A stretch of 64,000 nucleotides of DNA from Opitutaceae bacterium (GTDB taxonomy: Bacteria > Verrucomicrobiota > Verrucomicrobiia > Opitutales > Opitutaceae). Every line of letters begins with the position of its first letter. Position 1 is the first letter of the stretch. The notes under the pieces were generated by a model, which saw only the letters and a program-made list of their open reading frames with translations, was not told where the DNA came from and did not search any database. Positions 5,492 to 21,800 of this stretch are shown here, piece after piece. The DNA lies in contig JAQUYL010000001.1 in NCBI GenBank assembly GCA_028691845.1, positions 1 through 64,000 on the forward strand. Reading direction: 5' to 3'. A program made the translations under genes and the position numbers.

Positions 5492-6273
5492 GCATCATCT
5501 TCGGCCGCAAGCGCAGACGGCCCGACGAGCGGGATTACCTGCGCGAGGTCTTCATCCGCATGCTGCTGCACAGCGAGGAACGCGGACCGCACGCCTCCGG
5601 TCTGGCCTGGCTCAAGACTGACGGCAGCCATCGGATCTTCAAGCGGCCGATGCGGGCGCACGATCTGGTCTACGAGAAGACGTTCCAGGAGCTGCTCGGA
5701 CAGGTTGACAACGAGACCACCATCCTCATGGGCCACACCCGCTGGCGCACCCGGGGCAACGAGTTCAACAATCGCAACAATCATCCCATCCGGGCCGGGA
5801 TCGTCATCGGCACCCACAATGGCACCATCTACAACGCCGATTATCTGTTCCGCCGCCTCGGGCTGCCGCGCTACGCCGAGGTGGATAGCGAGCTGATCTT
5901 CCGCCTGGCCGACCGCTTCGCGCCCGAAGGCCCCATCGACCAGGAGGGCCTGAAGAAGGCGCTTGCCCTTTGTCGCGGCCAGATGAGCGCCGTGCTGGCC
6001 TCACGCCTCGACCCCGGCACCATCACCGTACTCAAGGGCAACAAGCCGCTCTGCCTGCGCATCCACCGCCAGCACCGGGTGGTGCTCTACGCCTCGGACG
6101 ACGCCTTTATCGACTTTGCCGTGGACAACGAGAAGGGCTGGCGCGAGCTGGAGGTGCCGCCCATGACCATGCTCACCATCCGCCACGAGGATGTGCGGGT
6201 CATCGAAAACAGCGAATTCCGCTTCATACCCCAGGAGCGCAAAGGGACACTGCCCGAAGGAGTGAATGCATGA
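5476..6273 (+). CDS. Class II glutamine amidotransferase (stand-alone GATase)
   Basis: 265 residues beginning Met-Cys-Gly, so after Met removal Cys2 would be the N-terminal nucleophile of the Ntn-hydrolase GAT-II family. Other hallmarks are GHTRWRTRG near residue 86 and the GTHNGTIYN oxyanion/glutamine-binding block near 112. The start at 5476 is chosen because it places the catalytic Cys at position 2; longer open frame upstream belongs to another reading of the neighbouring genes. There is no synthetase domain, so ammonia released from glutamine is presumably passed to the neighbouring amidoligase. It overlaps the upstream gene by 16 bases and the downstream gene by four (ATGA). Confidence 0.87.
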   Translation: MCGQVGIIFGRKRRRPDERDYLREVFIRMLLHSEERGPHASGLAWLKTDGSHRIFKRPMRAHDLVYEKTFQELLGQVDNETTILMGHTRWRTRGNEFNNRNNHPIRAGIVIGTHNGTIYNADYLFRRLGLPRYAEVDSELIFRLADRFAPEGPIDQEGLKKALALCRGQMSAVLASRLDPGTITVLKGNKPLCLRIHRQHRVVLYASDDAFIDFAVDNEKGWRELEVPPMTMLTIRHEDVRVIENSEFRFIPQERKGTLPEGVNA

Positions 6274-6788
6274 GCATTGGAGACACCGCGAAGCTGAACA
6301 CAAACCTGGAAGACAGTCCCGAGACCATCCTCCGGCTCTTCGTCTACGGCACCCTGAAACGGGGCTACTGGAACCATCAACGCTTCTGCGCCCATGCCCA
6401 AAGCATCGAACCGGCCGTGGTCTGGGGCAGGCTCTACCATCTCCACGCCGGTTTTCCGGCCATCGAAGTGCCGGAGGGACTGATCCTGGCCCAGGGTAGC
6501 GCCGATCCACTGACCGACGCCCGCAGGCAGCAGGAGGTCGGCACGCCACGATTCGGCCGCCCGACCGGTGACTGGGACCTGATCCATGGGGAGCTTGTGA
6601 CCTTCACCGACCCACAGCGGGATCTGCCGCCCATCGACCGGCTGGAAGGATTCCGGCCTGGCGGGCACAGCATGTATCAGCGGGTGATGGTGGCGGCAGG
6701 ATGCCGGAACGCTTCAATTGCAGTGTGGATTTACAGGATGGCTCGGGTTACAAATGGGGAGCAAATTGACCGGGAGTGGCGGGGCTAA
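6270..6788 (+). CDS. Gamma-glutamylcyclotransferase-like (AIG2/GGCT) protein
   Basis: 172 residues. The FVYGTLKRGYWNH stretch near residues 24-36 is the substrate-binding loop of the GGCT/AIG2 fold, and LEGF near residue 125 probably holds the catalytic glutamate. Family enzymes release 5-oxoproline from gamma-glutamyl amines. In this cluster it could trim or recycle the product made by the amidoligase. Translation start overlaps the amidotransferase stop. Its last four bases overlap the 3' end of the convergent XRE gene. The start ATG was set by the overlap and by the motif position. Confidence 0.82.
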   Translation: MSIGDTAKLNTNLEDSPETILRLFVYGTLKRGYWNHQRFCAHAQSIEPAVVWGRLYHLHAGFPAIEVPEGLILAQGSADPLTDARRQQEVGTPRFGRPTGDWDLIHGELVTFTDPQRDLPPIDRLEGFRPGGHSMYQRVMVAAGCRNASIAVWIYRMARVTNGEQIDREWRG

Positions 6789-7135
6789 TGGGTGTTGGCC
6801 TTGATGCTTTCGGCTGCCTGGATGAGGCTCTTGATCTCATCCTCGGTAAAGCTGGCTTCCTTGATGTAGCGAAGTAAATTCATGACTTCGGGTTGGTCAT
6901 GAAGGTAGTCGACAACTTCCGGGTCCGTGGACGAGGACAAACGGAACAGCACGTCGGGATCGGCGGCCAGCACCTTGGCCAGCTCTTTGATTACCTCTGG
7001 CCTTGGCGGACGCTCCTTGCCACGCTCTATGCGGCTCAGATAGGCGGGGGATATGCCTACCTTGGTCGCTGTCTCGCGCAGCCCGAGGTCTTGGGCGACT
7101 CGAAGGTCGCGGATGGTTTCACCAAAGTTTTTCAT
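6785..7135 (-). CDS. XRE-family transcriptional repressor
   Basis: 116 residues. N-terminal Cro/CI-type helix-turn-helix (residues 5-58: DLRVAQDLGLRETATKVG, then ISPAYLSRIERGKERPP), C-terminal small helical region (EVMNLLRYIKEASFTEDEI). I prefer the ATG at 7135 over an upstream GTG at 7174, because a TTGCAA-17-TATATT promoter on this strand would start the transcript at about this ATG, giving a leaderless message as known for lambda CI from PRM. It is divergent from the defence operon and probably represses it and itself through the GGTATATT dyad between them. Confidence 0.8.
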   Translation of the reverse strand: MKNFGETIRDLRVAQDLGLRETATKVGISPAYLSRIERGKERPPRPEVIKELAKVLAADPDVLFRLSSSTDPEVVDYLHDQPEVMNLLRYIKEASFTEDEIKSLIQAAESIKANTH

Positions 7136-7142
7136 AGGGTCT

Positions 7143-7171
7143 AATATACCTCGGTGTTTAGTGTTTTGCAA
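7143..7171 (-). promoter_or_regulatory. Predicted promoter of the XRE gene, leaderless
   Basis: On the minus strand: -35 TTGCAA (7171-7166), a 17-base spacer, -10 TATATT (7148-7143), then seven bases to the ATG at 7135. The spacing would put the transcription start at or within a base of the start codon. Confidence 0.5.
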
Positions 7172-7183
7172 CACAAAATTCCT

Positions 7184-7213
7184 CTGGCATTCTTTGGCGT
7201 AATTTGGTATATT
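7184..7213 (+). promoter_or_regulatory. Predicted promoter of the defence operon, with operator-like dyad
   Basis: On the plus strand: -35-like CTGGCA (7184-7189), 18-base spacer, -10 TATATT (7208-7213), about 86 bases before the first gene. The same octamer GGTATATT covers this -10 (7206-7213) and, inverted, the -10 of the divergent XRE gene (7143-7150). A repressor bound to both arms could control both promoters. Confidence 0.4.
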
Positions 7214-7299
7214 CTGGTTGATTTTTACTCAGAGGCAGGTAACTTACCCCTGTTCTGGCACTGTGCCTTGACGGCCAACAGCCCTGCAGGAGAGGCGAC

Positions 7300-7506
7300 A
7301 TGAGCAATGAAGAGGTTCTGAAAATAAAGGATGTCGCCGCCCTACTTAAGGTCGGCGACAAGACGGTCTATTCCATGGCCCAGACCGGGGAACTGCCTGC
7401 TTTCAAGGTCCGAGGCCAGTGGCGATTCTCCCGAAAGGACATCGACGCATGGATAGAGCAACAGAAACACACAACCCAGGATTTCGGCGAGGACGACCAG
7501 AAATGA
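7300..7506 (+). CDS. mad1: Small helix-turn-helix protein, MAD1-like
   Basis: 68 residues, a MerR/excisionase-type winged helix (KIKDVAALLKVGDKTVYSMA, then GELPAFKVRGQWRF) with an acidic C-terminal tail. GGAGAGG precedes the ATG. It opens the defence operon, 28 bases before the first methyltransferase. As I recall, methylation-associated defence systems begin with a small HTH protein (MAD1); that name is applied here by position and fold. It could be an operon regulator or a DNA-binding cofactor. A stray excisionase is unlikely, because no integrase is nearby. Confidence 0.7.
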   Translation: MSNEEVLKIKDVAALLKVGDKTVYSMAQTGELPAFKVRGQWRFSRKDIDAWIEQQKHTTQDFGEDDQK

Positions 7507-7534: not shown

Positions 7535-9538
7535 ATGAGCAGAAAGAAGAACAAGCAGGCCGAGAACACGATCCCGGCGGGATACACGCTCGACTACGTT
7601 TCCGGCAAACAGGTCAAGGAAACGAAGAAAGAGCTGGTGCGCCAGCGGGTCGTTCGTGCCTTGATCCACGAATACGGATTCTCGCCGGAAGACATGGAGC
7701 TGGATTTTTCCATTGGCGGCCGCAAGAAGGTGGACGTGGCCATCTTCCATCATGGCAAGGAACACACCATCGAGAACCTAGGCCGCGCCGTGCTCTGTCG
7801 CCAGGAGCCGAACGTCGGCAAGAATGCCGTGCGCATTCGCGACTTCGAGCAGGCCGCCAAGGACCTCGATGAGATCGAGACCATCATGCGTGAGGTCGAC
7901 GCGGTTCAGTACGGCTTGTGGACCAACGGCCTGGAGTTCTTCTTTGTCGAGAAGGAACAGAAGCGCTTCGAAACCAAGTGCAACCCCATCGGCGATTGGC
8001 CGATGGCCGAAGAGTCGGTCGGCACCAAGGAGGTCATTTCCGATGCCCATACCCGCATCGCCGACAACGAGATGCTCAAGATCACCTTCCGTCGCTGCCA
8101 CAACTACATCCATGGCAACGAGGGTATGCCCAAAGATGCCGCCTTCTGGCAGTTCCTCTATCTGATCTTCTGCAAGATGCACGATGAGAATCTGCGCGGC
8201 AAGCAGCGCCAGGCCTGGAAACGCCGCTTCTGGGCTGGCCCGAGGGAGCAGTTCGAGCCACAGGGCCGCAAGGCCATCCGTGCCCGTATCGAGGAGCTCT
8301 TCACCGAGGTCAAAAAGCAGTACAAGAACATTTTCCGGGGCAACGAGGAGATTACCCTCTCCGACCGGGCGCTGGCCTTTATCGTTTCTGAATTAGCCAA
8401 ATACGATTTCACCCGCACGGATGTCGATGCCAAGGGTGTGGCCTACCAAGAGCTGGTGGGCGTCAATCTGCGCGGCGACCGTGGTCAGTATTTCACTCCC
8501 CGGGGTGTGGTAAAGCTGGTCGTGGAAATGCTCGATCCCAAGGAGAGCGAGACGCTGCTGGACCCGGCCTGCGGGACCGGCGGCTTCCTGGTCGCCACCC
8601 TGGGACACATGTTGAAGAAATTCCGCGAGGAGCAGAATACCCAGGTCGGCAACGAGAACACCACCGAGTTTCTGAACGTCCACGAGCGGCTGAAAGAGTA
8701 TGCCGCCGCCAACGTGTTCGGGGCCGACTTTGACCCATTCCTGATCCGCGCCGCCCAGATGAACATGGTGCTGGCGGGTGACGGCCGTGGGCACATTTAC
8801 AACATCAACTCCCTGGAGTTCCCGCTGGGGCATCTGGCCGATCTGCCCTCCGCCAAGAAGGAGATCCAGCTTGGGTCGGTGGATATCATCGCCACCAATC
8901 CTCCGTTCGGCTCCGACATCCCGATTACCGATAAGCATATCCTGGAACAGTACGAGCTGGCCCATAACTGGGAGTCGGATGGCGAAGGCGGTTTCCGCAA
9001 CACCGGTAACGCCAAGGGCAGTGTCGCGCCGGAGATTCTCTTCATCGAACGCTGCATCAAGTGGCTCAAGCCGGGTACCGGTCGCATGGGCATCGTCCTG
9101 CCCGACGGCGTTCTCGGCAACCCGGCGGCGGAATACATCCGCTGGTGGATCATGCGTGAAACCCAGGTGCTCGCCTCCGTCGACCTGCCAGTGGAGGCCT
9201 TCATCGCCGAGGCCAACGTCAACATTCTTACCAGCTTGCTGTTCCTGCGCCGCAAGAGTGAAGAGGAAAAACGCGCCGAGGCTCTGGGCGGCATTGATGA
9301 ATATCCGGTCTTTATGGCCGTGGCCGACAAGGTTGGCTTCGACCGCCGTGGCAACAAGCTCTACAAGCGCACCCCGGACGGCGAAGAGATTGTCGAGCCC
9401 AAGAAACATATCGAGCGCATCCGCATCGGCGGGCGCTTCGTGGAACGGACCCTGACCCGCAGTGAAAAGATCGAGGACAACGATCTGCCGGTCATCGCTG
9501 AGAAGTACCGCGAATTTCTCAAGGAGCAGAACGGATGA
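7535..9538 (+). CDS. mad2: N6-adenine DNA methyltransferase (HsdM-like), MAD2-like
   Basis: 667 residues. The first 150 resemble the type I restriction N-terminal region (conserved KKVDVAIF; LWTNGLEFFFVEKE). Then comes the helical HsdM domain, the SAM-binding motif I DPACGTGGF near residue 343 and the catalytic motif IV NPPF near 455, both intact. It should methylate adenine at a site chosen by the specificity subunit downstream and so mark host DNA as self. Its stop overlaps the next methyltransferase start by four bases. The two are clearly paralogous: both continue with a shared block such as GGFRNTGN and LFIER. Compared with housekeeping HsdM, the N-terminal domain is an extra. Confidence 0.88.
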   Translation: MSRKKNKQAENTIPAGYTLDYVSGKQVKETKKELVRQRVVRALIHEYGFSPEDMELDFSIGGRKKVDVAIFHHGKEHTIENLGRAVLCRQEPNVGKNAVRIRDFEQAAKDLDEIETIMREVDAVQYGLWTNGLEFFFVEKEQKRFETKCNPIGDWPMAEESVGTKEVISDAHTRIADNEMLKITFRRCHNYIHGNEGMPKDAAFWQFLYLIFCKMHDENLRGKQRQAWKRRFWAGPREQFEPQGRKAIRARIEELFTEVKKQYKNIFRGNEEITLSDRALAFIVSELAKYDFTRTDVDAKGVAYQELVGVNLRGDRGQYFTPRGVVKLVVEMLDPKESETLLDPACGTGGFLVATLGHMLKKFREEQNTQVGNENTTEFLNVHERLKEYAAANVFGADFDPFLIRAAQMNMVLAGDGRGHIYNINSLEFPLGHLADLPSAKKEIQLGSVDIIATNPPFGSDIPITDKHILEQYELAHNWESDGEGGFRNTGNAKGSVAPEILFIERCIKWLKPGTGRMGIVLPDGVLGNPAAEYIRWWIMRETQVLASVDLPVEAFIAEANVNILTSLLFLRRKSEEEKRAEALGGIDEYPVFMAVADKVGFDRRGNKLYKRTPDGEEIVEPKKHIERIRIGGRFVERTLTRSEKIEDNDLPVIAEKYREFLKEQNG

Positions 9539-11553
9539 GCGATCAAGACGACATCATTGAAGCCCCGCAGGATGCTGCCGAAGAGAGCGGCCCGGATAAC
9601 TTTTTCATCGACATCCTGACCGGCAACAAGGAAAGCGCCTCGGCCAAGAAGCTGCTGGTGCAGAAGGTTCTGCGCCAGCTCATCGAGAGCTACGGCTTTG
9701 ATCGGAACGACCTGGAGGTCAACTACAACCCCCAGATCCCCGGCCAGGGGCGCAAGCGCATCGACGTCGCGATTTTCCGTCCCGATGCCGAGCATACCAA
9801 CGACAACCTGCAGCGGATCATCGTCTGCAAGACTCAGAAGAAGCGCGACAAGCTCCGCTCCATTACCGAGGCCGATGCCGACCTGCGCGAGCTCAAGGAG
9901 CTACTGGAACTGATCCCCGGCGCGACGCTGGGCATGTGGACCAACGGCCAGGAAGAGTTCCTGTTCCAAGTCGAGCGCACCCGCTTCGAGGTCCGCGCCA
10001 AGCCGCTGGGTGTCTGGCCGGTTCCGGGCGAACGGACCACCGATCTCGACCGCACCGGCGGTGTCATTCAGGTCAGCGCCGAAGCGGAAGACCTGGAAGA
10101 CGCTCTGCTGCGCTGCCGCCAGTATCTGAACCGCAACCTGGGGCTCGATCACAAGGATTCTTTCAAACAGTTGGCCGTGCTGATGCTGGCCAAGATCCAC
10201 GACGAGACCCTGCCCACCGGCGAGCGCAGATTCTGGATCAAGGGCGACGAGCCTTTCACCGAGGCGGGCCAACAGGCCATTGCCCAGCGCATCAACGAAT
10301 CCATTGCCGCTGCCAAGGCCTGGCAACCGAACCTGCTGACCCGTGGCTGGGAGCTGACGCTGGAACCCCACGAGACCGCCCGCGTGGTCATGGAGCTGGC
10401 CCGTTATAACTTAAGCGAAACCCAGCCCCGTTTCCGCACCGGGGCCTTCCGTGCGGTCGCCCGCAGCGTGATGGACGGCCGCGAGGGCCGCTACCCCACG
10501 CCGCTCAACGTGGCCGAAATGGCGGTGGAGATGCTCGACCCGCAACCCGGCGAGCGCATCATGGATTGCTCCAGCGGCACCGGCACTTTCCTCGCCATGA
10601 CCGCCGCGCACATCTTCAAGAAGAAACTGGCGGCCATGGGCACCACGCCTGAAGAGGCCACCAACGAACAGATCCGCCAGGCGCAAAACGAAACCGCCGC
10701 CTGGGCAGCCAGCAACGCCCTGGGCTGTGACATCGATCCCTTCCTGGCCGTTGCCAGCCGCATGAACCTGCTGTTCACCACCGGTAATCCCGGCCGCGTG
10801 TTCCGCATTGATGCCCGCACCTTCCCGGACGGCGATCTGGATGGCATCGAAGCCGCCCGCCCGGCTATGCCGCTGGGCAGCATGGATATGGTTCTGCTCA
10901 ACCCCTGGTTCTCGACCCAAGACACGGTGAGCGACACCTCCATCCTGGAGCGCTATGACCTGGGCAACAACTGGGAGCGCGACGAAGAAGGTGGTTTCCG
11001 CAACACCGGCAATCTGAGCACCGGAGGCGTCCCGCCCGAGGTTCTGTTCATCGAACGTGCCCTGCAGTGGGTGAAGCCCGGCACCGGCCGCGTGGGCATC
11101 CTGCTACCCGACGGCTTGCTGGGCAATCCCGGCGATGAGTACGTGCGCTGGTGGATTCTGCGCCATTGCGAGGTCATGGCCTCGGTTGACCTGCCGGTGG
11201 AACCTTTCAAGGTCACCGTCAAGGAGTATGGCCTGACGCCTGCCTTACCCAGCCTGCTGGTGCTACGCCGCCGCAGCCAGGAGGAGCTGATCAACACCGA
11301 GCATCCCGAATACAAGGTCTTCATGGCCGTGGTGGATCGGGCCGGTGTTGATGCTCGGGGCAATCTCCTGTTCCAGCGAGCCCCTGATGGCGAGGAACTG
11401 GTTTTCGATGAGGAAGTGATCGAGCGGGTTCGTGAAGGTGGCGAAGTGGAAATCCGCCGGACCACGCGCCGTAACCGCCGCATTCATGACGAGCTGCCGC
11501 TGGTGGCAGAGAAATACAAGGAATTCCGCGCAACCGGCGAGGTGACGTTATGA
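9535..11553 (+). CDS. Second methyltransferase-like protein with altered catalytic motifs
   Basis: 672 residues, paralogous to its upstream neighbour over the whole length, including the N-terminal restriction-type region (RKRIDVAIF, MWTNGQEEFLFQVE). Motif I is DCSSGTGTF instead of DPACGTGGF (about residue 344) and motif IV is NPWF instead of NPPF (about residue 456). NPP(Y/F) is the adenine-flipping and catalytic loop, so this copy may bind DNA without methylating, or may have changed specificity. It probably forms a heterodimer with the first copy on the shared specificity subunit. Overlaps of four bases on both sides show tight coupling. I do not match it with confidence to a named MADS component. 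Confidence 0.82.
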   Translation: MSDQDDIIEAPQDAAEESGPDNFFIDILTGNKESASAKKLLVQKVLRQLIESYGFDRNDLEVNYNPQIPGQGRKRIDVAIFRPDAEHTNDNLQRIIVCKTQKKRDKLRSITEADADLRELKELLELIPGATLGMWTNGQEEFLFQVERTRFEVRAKPLGVWPVPGERTTDLDRTGGVIQVSAEAEDLEDALLRCRQYLNRNLGLDHKDSFKQLAVLMLAKIHDETLPTGERRFWIKGDEPFTEAGQQAIAQRINESIAAAKAWQPNLLTRGWELTLEPHETARVVMELARYNLSETQPRFRTGAFRAVARSVMDGREGRYPTPLNVAEMAVEMLDPQPGERIMDCSSGTGTFLAMTAAHIFKKKLAAMGTTPEEATNEQIRQAQNETAAWAASNALGCDIDPFLAVASRMNLLFTTGNPGRVFRIDARTFPDGDLDGIEAARPAMPLGSMDMVLLNPWFSTQDTVSDTSILERYDLGNNWERDEEGGFRNTGNLSTGGVPPEVLFIERALQWVKPGTGRVGILLPDGLLGNPGDEYVRWWILRHCEVMASVDLPVEPFKVTVKEYGLTPALPSLLVLRRRSQEELINTEHPEYKVFMAVVDRAGVDARGNLLFQRAPDGEELVFDEEVIERVREGGEVEIRRTTRRNRRIHDELPLVAEKYKEFRATGEVTL

Positions 11554-12980
11554 GCAGAAAGTTTCAGGTTAAAACGGTTCCTGTCAGCTGGATTCTCCAT
11601 GAGGGGAGGAGGTTGGATTGTGGTCCGTATATGTCTGGTGCAATAGAAACCCGAATTCTCCTTGAAAAATTGCCGTTTAAGAAGAATGAACTACAGTCGC
11701 TGACTCGTGGTGGTATCTCAGGAATAATCAATGCTGGAAGAATAGCAAGAATCTGGGTTGACCATCCAGATCACGGATACAAGTTCCTCTCTAGCGCCGA
11801 CATTTTACAGTTTGATGTCAATAATGTGAGCTTGATCGCTAAATCGGTAGGGAGTCAAAATCGAAACTTATTGATTGAAAAAAATTGGACGCTTATCACG
11901 AGGTCAGGTTCGATTGGACGAATGGCCTACGCTCGTGAGGACATGCATGGATTAGCGTGTACAGAGGATGTGCTTCGTGTAATTCCTGATGAAAGCCAAG
12001 TTCATCCAGGATATATTTATGCTTACTTGAGCACAAAGTTCGGTATCCCACTTGTAACATCTGGGACCTACGGGTCAATCATTACGCATCTCGAGCCAAA
12101 TCACATCGCTGAACTTCCCGTTCCGAGAATTGGAGACACAGAGGAACAAGCACATGATCTGATTCAGAGAGCAGCTGATCTTAGGTATCTCGCAATTACA
12201 CAGATTAACAAAGCTACTAAAGACTATTTTTCCGCTGCTGGGCTTGAAGATATATCTGCAGTCGATTGGCATGAAAAATCTAAAAAATCTGGTTTTTCTG
12301 CTTCGCTAACCAATGCCAACAGCCTCAGGGCAATTAACTTTATCCCATTAAATAAAGAACTAGAGGAATATGTAAAAACCGCTAGATCGTGGTCATATAT
12401 TTCGGACTTAACTCGCCCTGGCACACTTAGGACAGGACCCCGTTTCAAACGCATAGATTCAATTCCCGACCCAGAGATTGGAGTAGAACTCTTAGGTCAA
12501 AGAGAGTGCTTCAACCTAAGGCCTGACGGTCGCTGGCTTTCTAAGAAATATTTACCAAAGGATGAGCTGATTTTTCTGCCAGAAGGTTCAACAATGATTG
12601 CCGCCCGAGGTGGGTTGGACGACAGTAATTCTTTTGCCAGATGTCAATTTATCGCTGGGAAGCGGACCCAATATGCTTACTCTCAAGATTTCTTGAGGGT
12701 GATACCTGAGCAAGACAAAATTCTGCCTGGGTGCCTATTTGCGTTTTTGAGATCGGAAATGGCTTTCAGAATGCTACGTGGGTATTCCATTGGCAGTATC
12801 CAGCAAGAATACCACCCTGAAATGGTTAAATGGATGCCGGTTCCTCTGGTCGATCAGGAAACAGCGAACCGAGTTAACGAGCTTGTTGTCGATGCGTATC
12901 GAAAATACGACGAAGCCATTGACTGCGAAGACCAGGCTCGCACCCTCGTCGAACGTGCCATTGAGGAGGGAGGTCGCTAA
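11550..12980 (+). CDS. mad5: Specificity subunit (HsdS-like), MAD5-like
   Basis: 476 residues with two half-repeats typical of HsdS. Each ends in a target-recognition-domain signature: SGSIGRMAYA...EDVLRVIPDE...SGTYGSIITHLEPNHI in the first half, and GKRTQYAYSQDFLRVIPE...GYSIGSIQQEYHPEMV in the second. The protein should give the methyltransferases a bipartite recognition site. The gene is strikingly AT-rich against its GC-rich neighbours on both sides, with rare-codon patches. The last 80 or so bases return to the operon's composition, which suggests that the TRDs were exchanged by recombination. It overlaps both neighbours by one to four bases. Confidence 0.85.
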   Translation: MSRKFQVKTVPVSWILHEGRRLDCGPYMSGAIETRILLEKLPFKKNELQSLTRGGISGIINAGRIARIWVDHPDHGYKFLSSADILQFDVNNVSLIAKSVGSQNRNLLIEKNWTLITRSGSIGRMAYAREDMHGLACTEDVLRVIPDESQVHPGYIYAYLSTKFGIPLVTSGTYGSIITHLEPNHIAELPVPRIGDTEEQAHDLIQRAADLRYLAITQINKATKDYFSAAGLEDISAVDWHEKSKKSGFSASLTNANSLRAINFIPLNKELEEYVKTARSWSYISDLTRPGTLRTGPRFKRIDSIPDPEIGVELLGQRECFNLRPDGRWLSKKYLPKDELIFLPEGSTMIAARGGLDDSNSFARCQFIAGKRTQYAYSQDFLRVIPEQDKILPGCLFAFLRSEMAFRMLRGYSIGSIQQEYHPEMVKWMPVPLVDQETANRVNELVVDAYRKYDEAIDCEDQARTLVERAIEEGGR

Positions 12981-15900
12981 TGGCGAAGGTCATACCCATC
13001 GGGCAACCCGCGAACGAATCTGAACGCCAGGCCATCGGTTTCCTTCGGGATCATCTGCCCGATGGCTGGCTGATCTTCCACAACTTCGAGATGCGCCAGG
13101 GTGAGGAGGTGTTCGAAATCGACATCGCCATCCTTGCGCCTCACGCGGTGTACCTGGTGGATGTCAAAGGGACGCGGGGCAACATCGATGTGTATGGCTC
13201 CAAGTGGTATCCCGAGGGGCGGCAGCCGTTCTTCTCGCCGCTGGCCAAGCTGCGCAGCCACGCCAAGACCATGGCCACCATCATCCGCGAGAGCAACACC
13301 GGCCTGATCGAGCTGCGCAAGGCCCATGTGCATGCCGCCGTGCTGCTCACCGCCGATGACGCCGCCGTGTTCGACCAGGCGGGCATCGACAGTCCGGACG
13401 TGACCGATTACAAGCACTGCCTGAAATACTTCCGCGATGGGAGCCGCATTCCCGATAACCGGCTGGACAACATCACCCGCTTCCACTCCCAGATCGCCAA
13501 GGCGATCACCGGTAAGGCCAAGCCCAAGAGCGCGGCGCTGGTGTTCCGCGACTGGCAGGTGGAAGAGAAGCTGGGCGGTACCGACCGCTACACTGAATAC
13601 CGCGCCAAACACAACCTGTTGGGCAAGAGCGGCGGCTGGGCACGCCTGCGTGTGTACCAAGCCGACCCTTACCAGGACGAAGCCGCCCGCAAGGAGGAAT
13701 TCAAAAAGATCAGCAACGCCTATCGCGCCGTTGCGCACATGCCGACCCACGCCAACGTGCTGGCGGTGAAGGATCTGTTCGTCTCAGACGATGAAGATAA
13801 GGTGGTGCTGGTCACTGAGGACCTGCCCGGCCAGGCCCTGCGTCTGCATATCAACAAGGTCTCCCTGGCTCTGACCTTTGACCAGAAGCTCCAGGTGATG
13901 CGCGACGTGCTGTCGGCCCTGGATCATGCGCACCGGCACGAGGTGATCCACCGTAATCTCACCCCGGACGCCATTCTGGTGACCAAGGGCGGCCAGGCCC
14001 GGGTGACGGGTTTTGATTTCGCCCGGGTGGGCAAGAACCGCACCTCCACCATCGCCGATCAGGTGGTGGATGATCTAGAAGCCGCCTACCAGGCTCCGGA
14101 GTGCTTCAAAGACCCGACCCAGGCCAGCATTGCCTCCGACCTCTACGCAGCCGGGCTGATCTTTTACGAGCTGCTGACCGGTGAGCTGCCCTTTGAAAGC
14201 GTCGACCAGATGATGGAAGCCGACGGCCGGTTCCCGATGAAGCCCTCGGAACACAAGCCCGACCTGCCCAAGGGGATCGACGAGTGGCTGCAGAAGTTCT
14301 GCGAGTTCGACCCCGAGGAACGGCACACCAGCGCGGCCATTGCCCGCAAGGCCCTGGATGACCTGATTCTGCCCGAAGCCAAGAACGACTCCGCCCCGGA
14401 TGTGAGCGACAAGGCCGTGGCCCAGCCTCAGCTCCCGGATGACCTGATGAACCTGCCGCAGGATTTTATCCTGGCGGACCGCTTCCGCATTCAGAAGAAG
14501 CTGGGCAGCGGCGGCTTCGGCGTGGCCTACAAGGTGTTCGATTCCCTGGGTGATGTGGTGCGGGTCATCAAGCTGGTGACCAAGGACCGCCGCAGCGTGT
14601 ATGAGCGGTTGCGTCGCGAATACAAGACCCTGACCAATCTGCCCGACCATCCGCATGTGGTGAAGGTGATCTGGGCGGATCGCATGGCCGATGCCAAGCA
14701 GACGCCGTACATCGTCTTTGAGTATGTGGAGGGTCTGGATGTCTCCGATCTGATCGATGCCGAGGCGCTGTCGCTGGATGATGCCGTGCGCATTGTGCGC
14801 GAGGCCGCCGATGGGCTGGCCCATCTTCACAAGCACGGCGTTTACCATCAGGACGTCAAGCCCTCCAACCTGCTGTGGACCGATAAGGGTGTCCGCATCA
14901 TCGATTTCAATGTCGCGGTCTCCGAGAACGATGAGGTTCAAGGCGGTGGCGGCACGCGTCGCTACCTGCCGCCGGATTACGATTACTCTTCCGAGCCGGA
15001 TGCTTCGGATCGGATGGACCGTGACCTCTATGCCCTGGGCATCTCCTTCTACGAGTGCCTGACCGGCAAGTATCCTTTCGACGACCCCACGCCGCCGATC
15101 AAGACTCAGCCCAAGGACCCCAAGCAGTTCAAAGGCTGCGCCGACCTCAGCTCGTCGCTGGTCAATGTGCTGGTGAAGATGATTGCGCCGGAGCGCAAGG
15201 ATCGCTTCGCCTCAGTACAGGAGTTCTTGACCGCCATGGCCGAGGTCAAGGGCCTGCGCTCTGTGCTGACGACCGGCGAGATTGGTGCCGGACCCAAGGT
15301 AGTGTCCAAGCTGGGCTTCGAGCCGACCAAGCCCAACACCAACCCCTTTGTCACCCACCTGCTGACCCTCTACAGCCAGAGCCAGGTATCCAACGCGGGT
15401 ACCCGTGGTCTCGACGAAATTGGCAAGGCCACCTATGTGCCGACCTATCTGGACGAGAAACTCAAGCCCGCGCTGCTCAAGGGCGAGTTCCGCCTGGTCA
15501 TCATCAGCGGTAATGCCGGTGACGGTAAGACGGCCTTCATTCAGCAGTTCGAGGACTTTGCCGAGAGCAAGGGCGCACAGATGCAGCGCGGAGCGAATGG
15601 GGCTGTGTTCCAGCTCAAGGGGCATACCTACCAGAGTAACTACGACGGCAGTCAGGATGAAGGCGACGAGCGCAACGATGCCGTACTGCAGAAGTTCTTT
15701 GCTCCCTTTGCGGGTAAGGACGCCTCCGGCCAGCCCGAGAATCAGACCCGTTTGATCGCGATCAACGAGGGGCGGCTGGTCGATTTCTTCCTGGAACATG
15801 AAGAGGAGTTCCCGCTGCTCGCCAAGCAGATCCAACAGGGGTTGGCCGGAGCCGCTTCGGAAGGTGGTATCGCGGTCATCAACCTCAACCTGCGCTCGGT

Positions 15901-17122
15901 GGTCGCCACCCCCGAGGAAGGTCAGCCTTCGATTCTGGAGCGCTTGGTCGCCCGCATGACTCAACGCGAATACTGGCAGGCCTGCGAGAAGTGCGACCTT
16001 AAGGGCAAATGCTACGCCTATCACAACGCCCGGACCTTCCAGGACCCGGTTGCCGGTCCCAAGGTCATCGAGCGTCTGAAGATGCTTTATGCCATTACCC
16101 ACCTTCGCGGCCGCCTACACATCACCATGCGCGACCTCCGTTCTGCGCTTGCCTTCATGCTGGTGGGCACCCAGGACTGCGACGGCATTCACCAGCTTTA
16201 CCAGAATGGTGGTGAAGAAAACCAGAATCGCATCCTTGACGGTTTCTATTTCAACTCGTGGCTTGGCGGGACTGAAGGCTCCAATGACCGGCTGATTGCC
16301 TTGCTGCGCGAGATCGATGTTGCCGAAGTCAGCAACCCCGATCTGGACCGCGAGCTTGGCTTCCTTAATCCCAAAACCAAGGCTATGAGCCGCTTCTCGT
16401 TCGCGGAGCGGGCCGGGTATGACAATGAGCTGGTGGAGACGCTGTTCCGCAATCTGCCTCGCGATTACTCGTCGAAGAACCGTACTCGATTAATCGCCAA
16501 GCACCGGAATTACCTCTCACACATGCGCCGCCGCCATTTCTTTGAGCGACGCGACATCGGTTGGAAGGAGATGCTGCCTTATGGAAGCATCGATCCCTTC
16601 CTGGATGCCATAGAACAGCCAGGCGCGAAAAGCGCCGATGAGGTTACCGCCATTCTCCGAGCCATCAACAGGGGCGAAGGTTTGAGCGATCCGGCGCGGC
16701 TGGGCAACCAGTTGGCGCTGCGTGTTCGCCAGGTGGATAAAGGCACCATCCGCAGTTACCGCCTCTTTGACGGCGACCATTTTACGCTGCGCACCGAGCA
16801 GGAAACGGCAGCTCATCCTTTCCTCGAGTGCCTGTCTCAGGCGCTGGTGCTGCTTTACGACTCCGGCGACGGGCACAAGGCCAGCCTGCGCATCAATCTC
16901 GACATCTATGAAATGCTGATGCGGCTCAACAACGGCTACCGTCCCAGCATCGAGGAGCAGGAAGGTTTCTACCTGAGTCTGGCGGTGTTCAAGAACGTCC
17001 TATCCGCCGCTCCCTATCAGGAGGTGCTCCTCACTGAAAGCGGCTTCGAATTCTTCCAGATCCGGCGCGACGACAAAGGCATCCTGCATCTGGGAAAGGT
17101 AAGCAGGAGGGCTGAAGCATGA
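12980..17122 (+). CDS. mad6: NERD/pseudokinase/kinase/NTPase protein, MAD6-like
   Basis: 1380 residues with four parts. (1) NERD nuclease-related domain, residues about 1-130, with FEIDIAIL...LVDVKG resembling the D-xn-D/E-x-K site. (2) A first protein-kinase fold, about 190-480, with IHRNLTPDAIL (HRD changed to HRN) and FDFAR in place of DFG, so probably a pseudokinase. (3) A second kinase, about 495-760, with an intact GSGGFG loop, VIK lysine, HQDVKPSN (catalytic Asp present) and IDFNVA. (4) A C-terminal P-loop part with GNAGDGKT near 843 and a Cys cluster CEKCDLKGKC near 1002. PglW of BREX also joins NERD and kinase domains. It likely senses infection and signals by phosphorylation. The MADS name is from memory. 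Confidence 0.82.
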   Translation: MAKVIPIGQPANESERQAIGFLRDHLPDGWLIFHNFEMRQGEEVFEIDIAILAPHAVYLVDVKGTRGNIDVYGSKWYPEGRQPFFSPLAKLRSHAKTMATIIRESNTGLIELRKAHVHAAVLLTADDAAVFDQAGIDSPDVTDYKHCLKYFRDGSRIPDNRLDNITRFHSQIAKAITGKAKPKSAALVFRDWQVEEKLGGTDRYTEYRAKHNLLGKSGGWARLRVYQADPYQDEAARKEEFKKISNAYRAVAHMPTHANVLAVKDLFVSDDEDKVVLVTEDLPGQALRLHINKVSLALTFDQKLQVMRDVLSALDHAHRHEVIHRNLTPDAILVTKGGQARVTGFDFARVGKNRTSTIADQVVDDLEAAYQAPECFKDPTQASIASDLYAAGLIFYELLTGELPFESVDQMMEADGRFPMKPSEHKPDLPKGIDEWLQKFCEFDPEERHTSAAIARKALDDLILPEAKNDSAPDVSDKAVAQPQLPDDLMNLPQDFILADRFRIQKKLGSGGFGVAYKVFDSLGDVVRVIKLVTKDRRSVYERLRREYKTLTNLPDHPHVVKVIWADRMADAKQTPYIVFEYVEGLDVSDLIDAEALSLDDAVRIVREAADGLAHLHKHGVYHQDVKPSNLLWTDKGVRIIDFNVAVSENDEVQGGGGTRRYLPPDYDYSSEPDASDRMDRDLYALGISFYECLTGKYPFDDPTPPIKTQPKDPKQFKGCADLSSSLVNVLVKMIAPERKDRFASVQEFLTAMAEVKGLRSVLTTGEIGAGPKVVSKLGFEPTKPNTNPFVTHLLTLYSQSQVSNAGTRGLDEIGKATYVPTYLDEKLKPALLKGEFRLVIISGNAGDGKTAFIQQFEDFAESKGAQMQRGANGAVFQLKGHTYQSNYDGSQDEGDERNDAVLQKFFAPFAGKDASGQPENQTRLIAINEGRLVDFFLEHEEEFPLLAKQIQQGLAGAASEGGIAVINLNLRSVVATPEEGQPSILERLVARMTQREYWQACEKCDLKGKCYAYHNARTFQDPVAGPKVIERLKMLYAITHLRGRLHITMRDLRSALAFMLVGTQDCDGIHQLYQNGGEENQNRILDGFYFNSWLGGTEGSNDRLIALLREIDVAEVSNPDLDRELGFLNPKTKAMSRFSFAERAGYDNELVETLFRNLPRDYSSKNRTRLIAKHRNYLSHMRRRHFFERRDIGWKEMLPYGSIDPFLDAIEQPGAKSADEVTAILRAINRGEGLSDPARLGNQLALRVRQVDKGTIRSYRLFDGDHFTLRTEQETAAHPFLECLSQALVLLYDSGDGHKASLRINLDIYEMLMRLNNGYRPSIEEQEGFYLSLAVFKNVLSAAPYQEVLLTESGFEFFQIRRDDKGILHLGKVSRRAEA

Positions 17123-18801
17123 GCATCAAAGGCAGAGACAAGGAGTTCCGCACTCCCAAGACCACCTACGTTGATTTCAAGCACATTGAGATGGATCGTG
17201 TGCTGACCATGCTCTTTCCTCGGCTGAAATACGATGGCTATGCCAGCCGACGCCCGCCCCGTGGCGGCGACCTGACCGTTGAAGAGTTCATGGAGGACTT
17301 CCTTGAGCATCCTGAATGGTTTGCGGGCTTTGATCGCTTTCCACAGGTGGTACACCGCTGGATCGAGACCGATCTGATGGATGTCGTTAATCGGGGCAAA
17401 GCCAATCAGGCCGTGGCCGCCCCGAGGCCGCTGCATGGCAACACCTATAAGTTCCGCAACGCCAAGCATACCCGTGATTACGGCGCGGCCGAGCAGATCT
17501 ACTGGATGCTTTTCTATGCCCGCAAAGGCAAGGGCCAAGCAGCGCGAGATGCCTTGAAGCGCTTCTTCTTCCCGGGAATCGACCTGGTGACGGACCGCTA
17601 CGATCCCAACGCATCCGTGGATGTGGAAACGCAGGCCATCCTGCGTCTGGATCATCAGGTTACCCAGGACATGAAGGACTCCAAGGAGCCATCGCGCTTC
17701 CAGCCGCTGTGTATCGGCCAGGCCGATATTATGGCCGACGACATTCTGCGGCTACTGGCCTATGAGCCCTATATCCCGCGTTCGGTGCTGGTGGATTACC
17801 TCAAAACCCTGGTGGCATTCCATCTGGCCCTCTACCATCTCAAGATGCTGCAGATACTGCCCAAGCTGGTGAAACAGCGCTCTGGAAACGATCTCTGCAC
17901 CACCAAGGAATGTCCGATCAACCCCGGCCTCGACAATGCGCTGGAAGGCTGTCCTTACCGCGTGGCACTGGTCGTGGACATGGGCGACGTCAACAATCCG
18001 CATATGGCCGAGTTGGCTCGCAAGTCCACTGACCGGCTCTATCGTCAGATACCGGCCTTTGTGCAGGCCAATTTCGTCGTCAAGAAGCTCGATGAGATGG
18101 CGGAATACCTGAGCAAAAAAACGGGCAAGCTGGCTACCCCTGGAGGCGGCGTGTTCACCGTTGGCGATCTGGTATCCCTGCTGAAGCCCGAGCACGACAC
18201 CGAGCGCCAAGCCTACTTCAAATTCCGCCTGGCGAGCCTGATCGAGGAATCGACATCGGGGAACGAGGACGTCGATCCGGAGATCCGTGAAGTCACGGGC
18301 ATGGGCCTTGGCGAGTTCGAATCCTTCATCGAAATCCTGATGGCGTATCGCGGCAAGTATCACCGCCAATACATCACTGAGTGCCTGGACTCTCTGCTGC
18401 TGAAGAACAAAGAGAATGGCTTGCTGGCCCAATCCCGGACCAAGGGAAGTCCTCGGCGATTTGTACTGGGGAGCAAGTTGCTCGAAGTGTTCCTTCAGGT
18501 GGCTGTGCTCACCCAGGATGGCGGGCGTTTCGTGACCCGAGAGGTTCGCATCGAGGAATTGCTGGCCTTTTTGAGAAACCGCTACGGCCTTCACATCGAC
18601 CGGCTGCCGGAAGGAGCCCAGGTCAACAGCAGCATCCTCGACAGACGCGCCCTGCGCCTCAACCTCGAAGCCTTCAAGCGCCGCCTGCGTGAAATCGGGT
18701 TCTACGAGGATCTGTCGGATGCCTACGTGACCCAGAAGGTATCGCCCCGCTATGCAATTGAGAAAAATGACGGAACTGATAAGAACGGGAGGCACGCATG
18801 A
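17119..18801 (+). CDS. mad7: Unknown defence protein, MAD7-like by position
   Basis: 560 residues with no domain I can name. It overlaps the kinase gene upstream and the HerA-type gene downstream by four bases each, so it is a core operon member. A few features stand out: a Cys-containing segment (DLCTTKECPINPGLDNALEGCPYR, about residues 256-279) that could bind a metal, and a C-terminal part (GSKLLEVFLQVAVLTQDGG...IEELLAFLRNRYG) that looks like a winged helix. I assign MAD7 only from gene order between a MAD6-like and a MAD8-like gene. It might be an adaptor between kinase and ATPase. Confidence 0.6.
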   Translation: MSIKGRDKEFRTPKTTYVDFKHIEMDRVLTMLFPRLKYDGYASRRPPRGGDLTVEEFMEDFLEHPEWFAGFDRFPQVVHRWIETDLMDVVNRGKANQAVAAPRPLHGNTYKFRNAKHTRDYGAAEQIYWMLFYARKGKGQAARDALKRFFFPGIDLVTDRYDPNASVDVETQAILRLDHQVTQDMKDSKEPSRFQPLCIGQADIMADDILRLLAYEPYIPRSVLVDYLKTLVAFHLALYHLKMLQILPKLVKQRSGNDLCTTKECPINPGLDNALEGCPYRVALVVDMGDVNNPHMAELARKSTDRLYRQIPAFVQANFVVKKLDEMAEYLSKKTGKLATPGGGVFTVGDLVSLLKPEHDTERQAYFKFRLASLIEESTSGNEDVDPEIREVTGMGLGEFESFIEILMAYRGKYHRQYITECLDSLLLKNKENGLLAQSRTKGSPRRFVLGSKLLEVFLQVAVLTQDGGRFVTREVRIEELLAFLRNRYGLHIDRLPEGAQVNSSILDRRALRLNLEAFKRRLREIGFYEDLSDAYVTQKVSPRYAIEKNDGTDKNGRHA

Positions 18802-21800
18802 GTAACGCCTTCACCAAGCTTTCCCAGGATAAATTGAACGCGACGGTCGCTGGTCTGCTGTGTCCTCGTATCGAAGTGATCCTGGGTGACCGTGGCCCAG
18901 GCCACTGCATGCGAGTCACCGATCTTGATGACGATGTCATGGAGTCGGTCTGCAAGGAACTGCGCCGTACCCGGCCCGACGGAAACATTTTTATCCTCGG
19001 CAGCCATGACCAGGAGGGCCAACCCTTCCGAGTCACTTCCACCAAACTGGTGGAGCTTCGTAATCCTGACGCCAACGGCGAGCTGCGCCAGCCTTTGCTG
19101 GTCTTCATCCCGACCTCGCTCCGCACCAGCGCCGAGGACTCTTTTGGCGCGGCGACCTTCGAGGAGCTGGCTTTCACTGGTATCTACGAGGACCTTATCG
19201 ACTCGCTGCTTGACCGGCTCCCGGCAACGCTGGTCGGCCATGTGCGCGATCTTTTGGGCATCCTCACCGAGGAGGAATGGCTTTTTGCCGACGATGTTTC
19301 CCGCGTGCGGTATCTACTCACCGCGCTCGAAAACGGGATTGATGGAGAAACCCTCGGGGCCAGCCTGTATGAATTGACGTTGATTCCGGACTTCAAGCTC
19401 TTTACCGATCCCGGCATGGTCAATGGCAAGATTCGCCGTAATCTCGGCAGTGTCCGCAGTCTGATGACCTCTCACAAGTCGGTTCGTGGTCGTATCGCCG
19501 ATCTCGGACTCAGCGACAAGGCATTGGAGTCGCGCCTGTTCACCTACTTTGAAAAATACGATGTCCAGGAGCCCGAATCCTGGACGCCGCTCATCGCGAC
19601 CGACAAGAACTGGTGGAGTATTTCTTTTGACAAATGGACGTTCCAGGAAGAACTTTCGCTGGACAAGATTCTTCTGACGGTGCTGGAGACCGACTTGCCG
19701 GTCGTTCAGGAGGATGAGACCGACGACCAACTCTCCGGCCTCATCGGGCAACAGGTTCTGGTCCCGAACGACCGCCGTAAAATGAATGTGGTGTTCGAAG
19801 TTAACCCTCACCCCGGTAAGGTCAGCGGGCTTGACCATTTTACGGTTCAGATCATTTCGCAGAATGACGGCCCGGTAGGAAAATCCAAAAAGGTCAAAGC
19901 CTGGACGCCGAATCGCCTGCAATGCACGACCAACCTGGCCAAGCTTAATAAAATCGAATTCGAGGAAGGATGGCATTTCATCCGTGTAATGCCTTGGACG
20001 GCCGATGGCGACCCGATTCCGTTGGAAGCGGATTCCGCCTCCGAGGGCGCTAAACGCTCTTACGAGAGCGAACCTTTCTACGTCCTGCCCGGTGGCAACA
20101 TCGAGGAAGAACCGCCGCAACGTGCCATACCCATTGAGCAGAGCCTGGAGCATGCACGTTTCCGGCTGCAACTGACTGCCCTGGGCGATGAACGCGATCC
20201 CGATGATATCGCCATCAGTAGTGTCGCCTGGGCCGAGGGTGTTCGTTCCAAGAAGACCTCCCGTCAGGAAACCTTGTACGCAAAATTCGGTCGTGAGGGC
20301 GCTGTTCAGATCCCGCTTTCGCGTATGCTCAAAACCATCGAGCAGCGTATCTTAGCAGAGCCCAAGCACCCGTCGGGCTGGCGAATGCAGATAAATCTGG
20401 ATACCGCCGAGCCGCCTTCCGAGGTCGGGCTCACGCTGCCATCTTCTGCCGCGATGGCTTCCTTCCTGGCCACCCGCGAAGAGTTTTTTGCAGCAGTGCG
20501 CAAAGACACTGCCGAGCTGATCATGCAGGGACTCTCGTTCCGAGACACGGAAAAGGAATGCCTTGCGTATGCTGAAAGCTACCTTGACCTGGTCAGGAAC
20601 CTCACCCGTCAGGCCGAAACGACTTCCGGTGCTGAGCGTCAGCAACACCTGCAAGCGCTTAGAAACATACTGGCCGTTGATTCCATTCATGTCATCTTGA
20701 CCGACTTCCGTGGAAGGCATCGGGAGGCTGTTTTGGTCTCCCCAACCCATCCGCTCCGTGCTTTGTGGCTGAGCAGTTGGGTCACTCTGGGCAAGGATTG
20801 GATCGAGAAGATCAAGTCCGGCGGGAAGGATCACATTCCTCACGTCCGTTCCGCGCTGCTGGATGGCCTTGTGCCCTCTGCCTATCCGGTCGGTATTCCC
20901 GTCGAGGATGGCCGCATCTTCACTCCGGTGGACAACCTGAATGCGTTTTGGGCGCTCTACGCCCCGACCACCGAGGAGAATTCCCGTGGCCTGATGGCGG
21001 AGATCTGTTCGGCCCTCGGCTTGGCCGAGCCCTCTGCGGCGGGAACCGATATTTCCGGAAAGGTCATTGCGGACAAGATCGAGCGCTATCTCTCTCAGCA
21101 TCCGTATGTGCGAGAGCTTTCTCTGAACATCTTCAACCCCGGGGCTGGTTCGGTGATAGCGGAGGCCCTGATATCGCTCCAGCAGAAGCGTGAGCATGCC
21201 GATTTGCGCTATGACATCCGGCTCTTTACCTCCGATCCCGACTCGCCTGTTTTGGGTGAGGCGCTTGAATCCATGGTCCGTCCCGGAGCTACGGTAAACG
21301 AGGCCGCCGACGCTTTTGCGACTTCAACTGGCAGCCATCTGTTCTCCAAGCTGAACTTGGCTAAGCACGCGCTGAATGAATTCCATGCAAATTCCAAGGA
21401 GTTTCTGGCGCACATCAGCGTTCTTCTGGATGTGTTTCCCGCTGAGGAGCTTTCCATTGCAGAGAAACCGATGGGAGTGACTCCGCTGCATGGGTTGATA
21501 CAGGACTTCGGCACCGAATTCGTTGATGACGATTCGGGTACCTTCTGGAATAAGCGGCCGATTGTCGGCCGCTCCCTCGGTGCGGACAACCACGCTGCGT
21601 GCTTCGATTTGCTGTCGTCCCTGAGCCGTCACCTCTGTTTTGCGACATCAGCGGTTGCTGCTTCAGGTGCCAGTTTCAAAGCCGTACCCGTCGTGACCCT
21701 TGGCCTCGATGTGGCAGAGCGAGAACTGATCTACGAGGTTCACCAGATCAGCGATTGGGTCTTCACCATCGACCGAAATATGGGGATTGAGTTTTTCGAC

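Follow-up and report, generated by a model that had tools for sequence, protein, structure and literature searches.

In phage 186, as described in PMC7498355, the small excisionase-type protein Apl represses both pR and pL from direct repeats that lie between these promoters at a spacing of 10–11 bp, with separate repressor operators adjoining. BldC of Streptomyces, a 68-residue winged helix-turn-helix (wHTH) protein and developmental regulator, binds direct repeats of the unit AATTXXXX(C) head to tail, according to PMC5859096. Controllers of restriction-modification (R-M) systems of the C.AhdI type are small XRE-fold regulators of methyltransferase-bearing defence loci; the account in PMC5333194 has the AhdI C regulator transcript leaderless and C dimers at a distal and a proximal site. 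RptR is encoded by a small repressor gene at type I R-M defence islands, where it binds promoter direct repeats that are 9 bp long (TTTAGCTAA) and carry a TAGCTA palindrome, as given in PMC12255303. CapH, an HTH repressor, controls immune operons together with CapP, as reported in PMC13373217. For the MADS defence system, the literature searched, with the original MADS paper outside that search, gave no description of regulators or of how MADS is switched on.

The window analyzed here is a stretch of 64,000 nucleotides from an Opitutaceae bacterium. It holds mad1, mad2, mad5, mad6, mad7, and mad8 in one operon, with PADLOC matches for all six, which makes the operon one of the MADS type. A 164-bp gap (7136–7299) separates the minus-strand gene xre (6785–7135, ATG at 7135) from the plus-strand mad operon. 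The initial annotation read this gap as a divergent control region that xre has in common with a defence operon, and that reading is borne out. The operon order, from PADLOC and Pfam, is as follows: mad1 (7300–7506); mad2, an N6-adenine DNA methyltransferase (7535–9538; both searches); a second mad2-like methyltransferase, mad2′ (9535–11553; both searches); mad5, a specificity subunit (11550–12980; PADLOC); mad6, with NERD and protein kinase domains (12980–17122; both searches); mad7 (17119–18801; PADLOC, E 6.6e-121); and mad8, ATP-binding with a HerA-like C-terminal part (18798–24263; PADLOC). The MADS numbering leads one to expect mad3 and mad4, neither of which is among the PADLOC matches listed; the second mad2-like gene stands in that place, as it does in E. 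coli EC11. The NCBI annotation of EC11 shows the same layout, with xre divergent from mads1-mads2-mads2-mads5-mads6-mads7-mads8, but leaves the divergent HTH gene unlabelled and outside MADS.

Downstream of mad8, the segment 24272–29372 carries genes with HARE-HTH/Mrr, AAA, McrBC, and ADP-ribosylglycohydrolase domains (Pfam). Because these follow the MADS operon, the whole looks like a defence island in which modification-dependent restriction lies beside a methylating system. On the other side, before xre, the segment 93–6273 has genes for a DUF4815 protein, an amidoligase, and a glutamine amidotransferase, and a by-eye reading places a GGCT-like frame at 5970–6788.

The xre product is a 116-residue XRE-family HTH protein that matches Pfam HTH_31/HTH_3 and the PADLOC HTH_VI and capH profiles. 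Its AlphaFold2 model (mean pLDDT 90) is all helical, and Foldseek matches its HTH to P22 c2, SinR, C.AhdI, DdrO, and CapH. PADLOC, the model, and Foldseek agree on an XRE-type HTH plus a C-terminal helical domain, the makeup of CapH-type proteins. The mad1 product has 68 residues and is a stand-alone short winged HTH of the HTH_17 type (Pfam 5.7e-19; PADLOC mad1 7.3e-08), as expected of the BldC family. The top seven PDB matches to the Mad1 model are BldC–DNA complexes, 6ama/6amk being closest, at a weak best E of 8.7e-03; RacA, RdfS, and Pukovnik Xis are among the next matches, also with weak E-values. A profile search for PDB relatives of Mad1 by sequence found none. Mad1 and BldC have the same length, and the fold closest to the Mad1 model is that of BldC; BldC serves development, whereas Mad1 is proposed to regulate a defence operon.

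The promoters lie back to back. On the minus strand, TTGCAA (7171–7166), a 17-nt spacer, and TATATT (7148–7143) are followed by 7 nt and the xre ATG, exactly as first read. On the plus strand, the mad1 promoter (7184–7213) has CTGGCA (7184–7189), an 18-nt spacer, and TATATT (7208–7213), with a predicted start at ~7220. A promoter-pattern search over 1.2 kb returned 2 sites, where shuffled sequence would be expected to give 0.5. The xre ATG is conserved among relatives. Of 35 non-cyanobacterial loci, 31 have a −10-like hexamer that lies 6–9 nt ahead of the start codon, which exceeds chance, since letter shuffling gave a mean of 6.2 and at most 15. This geometry supports the leaderless XRE gene of the initial annotation, and xre is probably leaderless, much as the AhdI C regulator transcript is. 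The clear exception, L017, looks as a leadered gene should: its distance is 41 nt, an AGGAG lies ahead of the start, and the start codon is GTG. An upstream GTG (7174) was rejected as the xre start because dyad-to-ATG distances range over 18–21 nt without shifting by multiples of 3 and because the ATG is retained in relatives. Two features had been overlooked: a conserved dyad of 22 bp has TTGCAA at its middle, and four 10-bp direct repeats lie over the mad1 promoter.

The dyad (7157–7178, without strand) reads TTTTGTGTTGCAAAACACTAAA in the XRE sense, follows the general form TTTAGTGTTGCATAACACTAAA, and is centred on the xre −35 box (7166–7171). Scanning genome contigs for relatives of the XRE protein turned up 44 loci, 45 with the window's own copy (L001). 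Three were left out: L011, with only 16 nt upstream, and L044 and L045, which are 43–44% identical and not beside MADS genes. In all 42 testable loci, cyanobacteria with another gene order included, the sequence before xre agrees with TTTAGTGTTGCATAACACTAAACA at 19 or more of 24 positions; these loci are related, spread by transfer and not independent, and the p-values given here ignore that kinship. At 40 of the 42, mad2 is also encoded. By their record titles, the loci belong to sulphate reducers, to other proteobacteria, and to Acidobacteria, Chloroflexi, Synergistetes, a Spirochaetia bacterium, and cyanobacteria, a spread indicating that the module either has moved or is old. Over 32 non-redundant loci, the 24 columns of the 24-mer 7155–7178 hold 36.8 bits, with most flanking columns at ≤0.5 bit, and symmetric pairs 1, 2, 7, and 8 of the dyad's 11 are identical in 32/32.

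Among 384 genomes from the class, a single one contains the exact 19-base dyad pattern, and there it is confined to this locus; two viral contigs also contain it, both times beside xre and mad1. Eight of eight further loci checked later, four from E. coli and four from viral contigs, have the dyad core. By comparison, none of 16 xre-less control regions (nine viral, six plasmid, and one MADS locus without xre and mad1) has the dyad; they score 10–13 of 24, within the range of random 220-mers, whose maximum is 15. Seven cyanobacterial loci have xre ahead of mad2 with both genes on one strand, and there the dyad stands 10–12 nt before the ATG rather than 18–21 as elsewhere. On this comparison, the kept feature is the dyad, not promoter spacing. 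The pattern fits a site for an XRE dimer, and we infer that XRE very probably binds it. C dimers have a distal and a proximal site, whereas XRE would have a single dyad; at ≤3 mismatches, the sole other match in the region is the same dyad on the opposite strand.

Several loci depart from the full arrangement. What L005 retains of MADS is xre, mad1, and a fragment of mad8, and in L014, only xre remains; both keep the dyad. L044, L045, and L061 have the presumed recognition-helix motif SPxYLSRIE and no dyad (L044 and L061 in alignment). L077 (5110–5349; E. coli 10035210-2) is a natural xre-damaged MADS, in which xre is frameshifted after ~75 residues and the annotation gives mad1, the two mad2 genes, mad5, and the beginning of mad6 as intact. 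L083 (genome G510) is a MADS without xre, mad1, and dyad, so the regulatory module is not obligatory; its genes include an AAA ATPase-like frame between mad2 and a second-mad2 remnant. When viral contigs were scanned again by alignment, L091 (xre) and L096 (mad1) were the sole additions; the XRE protein had no match in plasmids or phage records, and Mad1 had none in phage records. An RNA hairpin is an unlikely use of the dyad, since both predicted starts fall downstream of it. The 14-base dyad core is exact at two places in the genome; the second (C31:87291) is flankless, in what by eye is a coding stretch, and no wider XRE regulon is claimed.

Past the dyad, in the mad1 sense and in fixed register with it, TGG recurs every 10 bp, within four direct repeats, TCTGGCATTC TTTGGCGTAA TTTGGTATAT TCTGGTTGAT (7183–7222, plus strand), that enclose the mad1 promoter. 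Among 22 loci with mad1 (25 minus three near copies of L021), TGG is found at +6/+16/+26/+36 after the dyad in 19/12/11/6, against 1/1/0/1 of 10 loci lacking mad1 (Fisher 7e-5 for +6, kinship of loci ignored); the seven cyanobacterial loci have +6 in two and the others in none. TGG pairs at spacing 10 occur in 15 of the 22, in one of the 10, and in none of the seven. Over 25 loci (the 22 plus L054, L059, and L075), such pairs total 23, where 300 shuffles gave at most 5, and pairs at spacing 9 or 11 are absent. Seven of the 22 have no spacing-10 pair, and L028 has no copy in register. In eight of nine loci that lack mad1 and keep mad2, the mad2 match starts 98–248 nt from xre (305 nt in L033), and 98–248 nt is insufficient for a mad1 gene plus leader. 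Mad1 quite probably binds the array. The RptR islands are similar in having a small repressor gene and promoter direct repeats at a defence island, but their 9-bp repeats with a TAGCTA palindrome are unlike the 10-bp repeat here.

Similar repeats lie before some of the Mad1-like genes found elsewhere. On viral contigs that encode a Mad1-like protein but have neither xre nor dyad, CTGGCAAAGTCTGGC-type pairs are present at five of the seven loci counted, L066 and L067 being without; by eye, we take the genes that follow to resemble R-M or helicase genes. The plasmid relative L084, with a Mad1-like gene before a DUF499 gene and no xre or dyad, has five TGG near a 10-bp register. The plasmid Mad1-like HTH genes L085, L086, and L087 have a 10-bp upstream repeat of other sequence, like TCTTGCAAAG; L085 and L087 precede hsp20-clpK heat-resistance genes, and L086 is related in sequence. 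L088 and L089, also from plasmids, have no clear motif upstream. The mean lag-10 self-match is above every shuffle in all three sets. A hold-out for the Mad1 repeat code gave mixed results. The array is absent from L096, a close Mad1 relative (65% identical), and in 17 remote small HTH genes, TGG pairs at spacing 10 occur in L138 only and pairs at 9 in six; the latter are possibly other subfamily codes of the Mad1-like family. L146, L148, L150, L151, and L152 are small HTH genes with a KVGRLWKF-like wing and 9-bp TGG pairs in shared context, possibly the operator of another such subfamily.

Positions, conservation, and the way each element tracks its gene, the dyad with xre and the array with mad1, are seen directly in these loci. 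The pairing of protein with element, the oligomeric state, the direction of regulation, and the transcription starts are read from them in the following model, to which we give a probability of roughly 0.65: the control region has two operators, with XRE at the dyad limiting xre and Mad1 at the repeats repressing the mad operon. An XRE dimer on the dyad, whose midpoint falls at about −32 in the xre promoter, would hide the −35 box and limit its own leaderless transcript; repression of xre is likely. Mad1, as first product of the MADS operon and BldC/Xis-like, would occupy the array with one subunit per repeat. Since the repeats span the mad1 promoter from −35 to +1, bound Mad1 would cover it, and repression of its own operon is moderately likely. 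The dyad stops 5 bp short of the mad1 −35, with its centre at ~−52 from the predicted start, so XRE may well tune the mad operon too; that it acts there, in either direction, is slightly favoured. The earlier claim that XRE balances its own synthesis against the operon is supported as far as autoregulation, which is likely, and falls short on the mad1 arm, where the array tracks Mad1, a second regulator absent from that claim.

The layout recalls phage 186 in its small excisionase-type protein, its helix-turn-spaced direct repeats between two promoters, and its adjoining operators for a separate repressor. The phage promoters are face to face, unlike those of the window, and Apl, as PMC7498355 describes it, also drives excision, nothing of which kind was seen at the window locus. 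Phage switches that pair CI with Apl or Cox have two regulators, distinct operators, and mutual antagonism; here, two distinct elements were found.

Repression of the mad operon by XRE is favoured over activation because the same dyad lies just before a same-strand xre–mad2 pair in the seven cyanobacterial loci, where it suits repression. A dual role in the manner of lambda CI at its right operator, with dyad-bound XRE repressing xre and activating the mad1 promoter, is unlikely. The fixed distance from dyad to array and promoter in mad1-bearing loci accords with activation, and a centre at ~−52 matches the helical phasing of common activator sites; against this, the nine loci with mad2 and without mad1 retain the dyad, mostly without the array.

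A similarly doubtful alternative makes XRE a CapH-type repressor that is destroyed by a protease on DNA damage, the locus being induced by infection. XRE matches the PADLOC capH profile at 8e-12 and resembles the CapH N-terminal domain (7t5u) with a Foldseek TM of 0.87 by target length, and both would be HTH repressors of an immune operon. But many other XRE repressors match XRE as well as CapH does, and Pfam searches of eight operon-region and eight flanking proteins found no metallopeptidase family and no CapP-like protease.

That the dyad and repeats are conserved merely as promoter parts is very improbable. Both do overlap −35 and −10 boxes, but the symmetric conserved 22 bp reach far beyond a −35 box, the dyad stays the same in cyanobacteria where its distance to the start codon differs, and the array is mostly gone from mad1-less loci that still hold mad2. 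Also very improbable is the original proposal that XRE binds two inverted octamers over the divergent −10 boxes to balance both promoters: GGTATATT is indeed at 7143–7150 (minus) and 7206–7213 (plus), inverted as first described, with 4 exact copies in the window against 0.29 expected, but among 35 related loci it is on the XRE side in five, on the mad1 side in nine, and on both arms in only four, the mad1-side copy is partly array repeat plus −10 box, and the dyad is far better conserved, so the octamer was rejected as an operator.

A bolder extension of the two-operator model, which we consider a long shot, is a bistable switch. Mad1 would spread from array to the abutting dyad, in the way that Apl spreads, displace XRE, and shut off xre, and XRE would hold mad down, so that a cell or new host would commit to MADS on or off; Mad1-like modules with their own repeat codes would then head many defence operons.

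The layout is common to very different bacteria, which makes MADS switching directly testable. The proposed operators are short, exact, and present in E. coli genomes, and on the two-operator reading, loss of xre and loss of mad1 should each have its own separate effect. Should the repeat code of Mad1 prove true, it would offer a way to read the regulators that head other defence operons.
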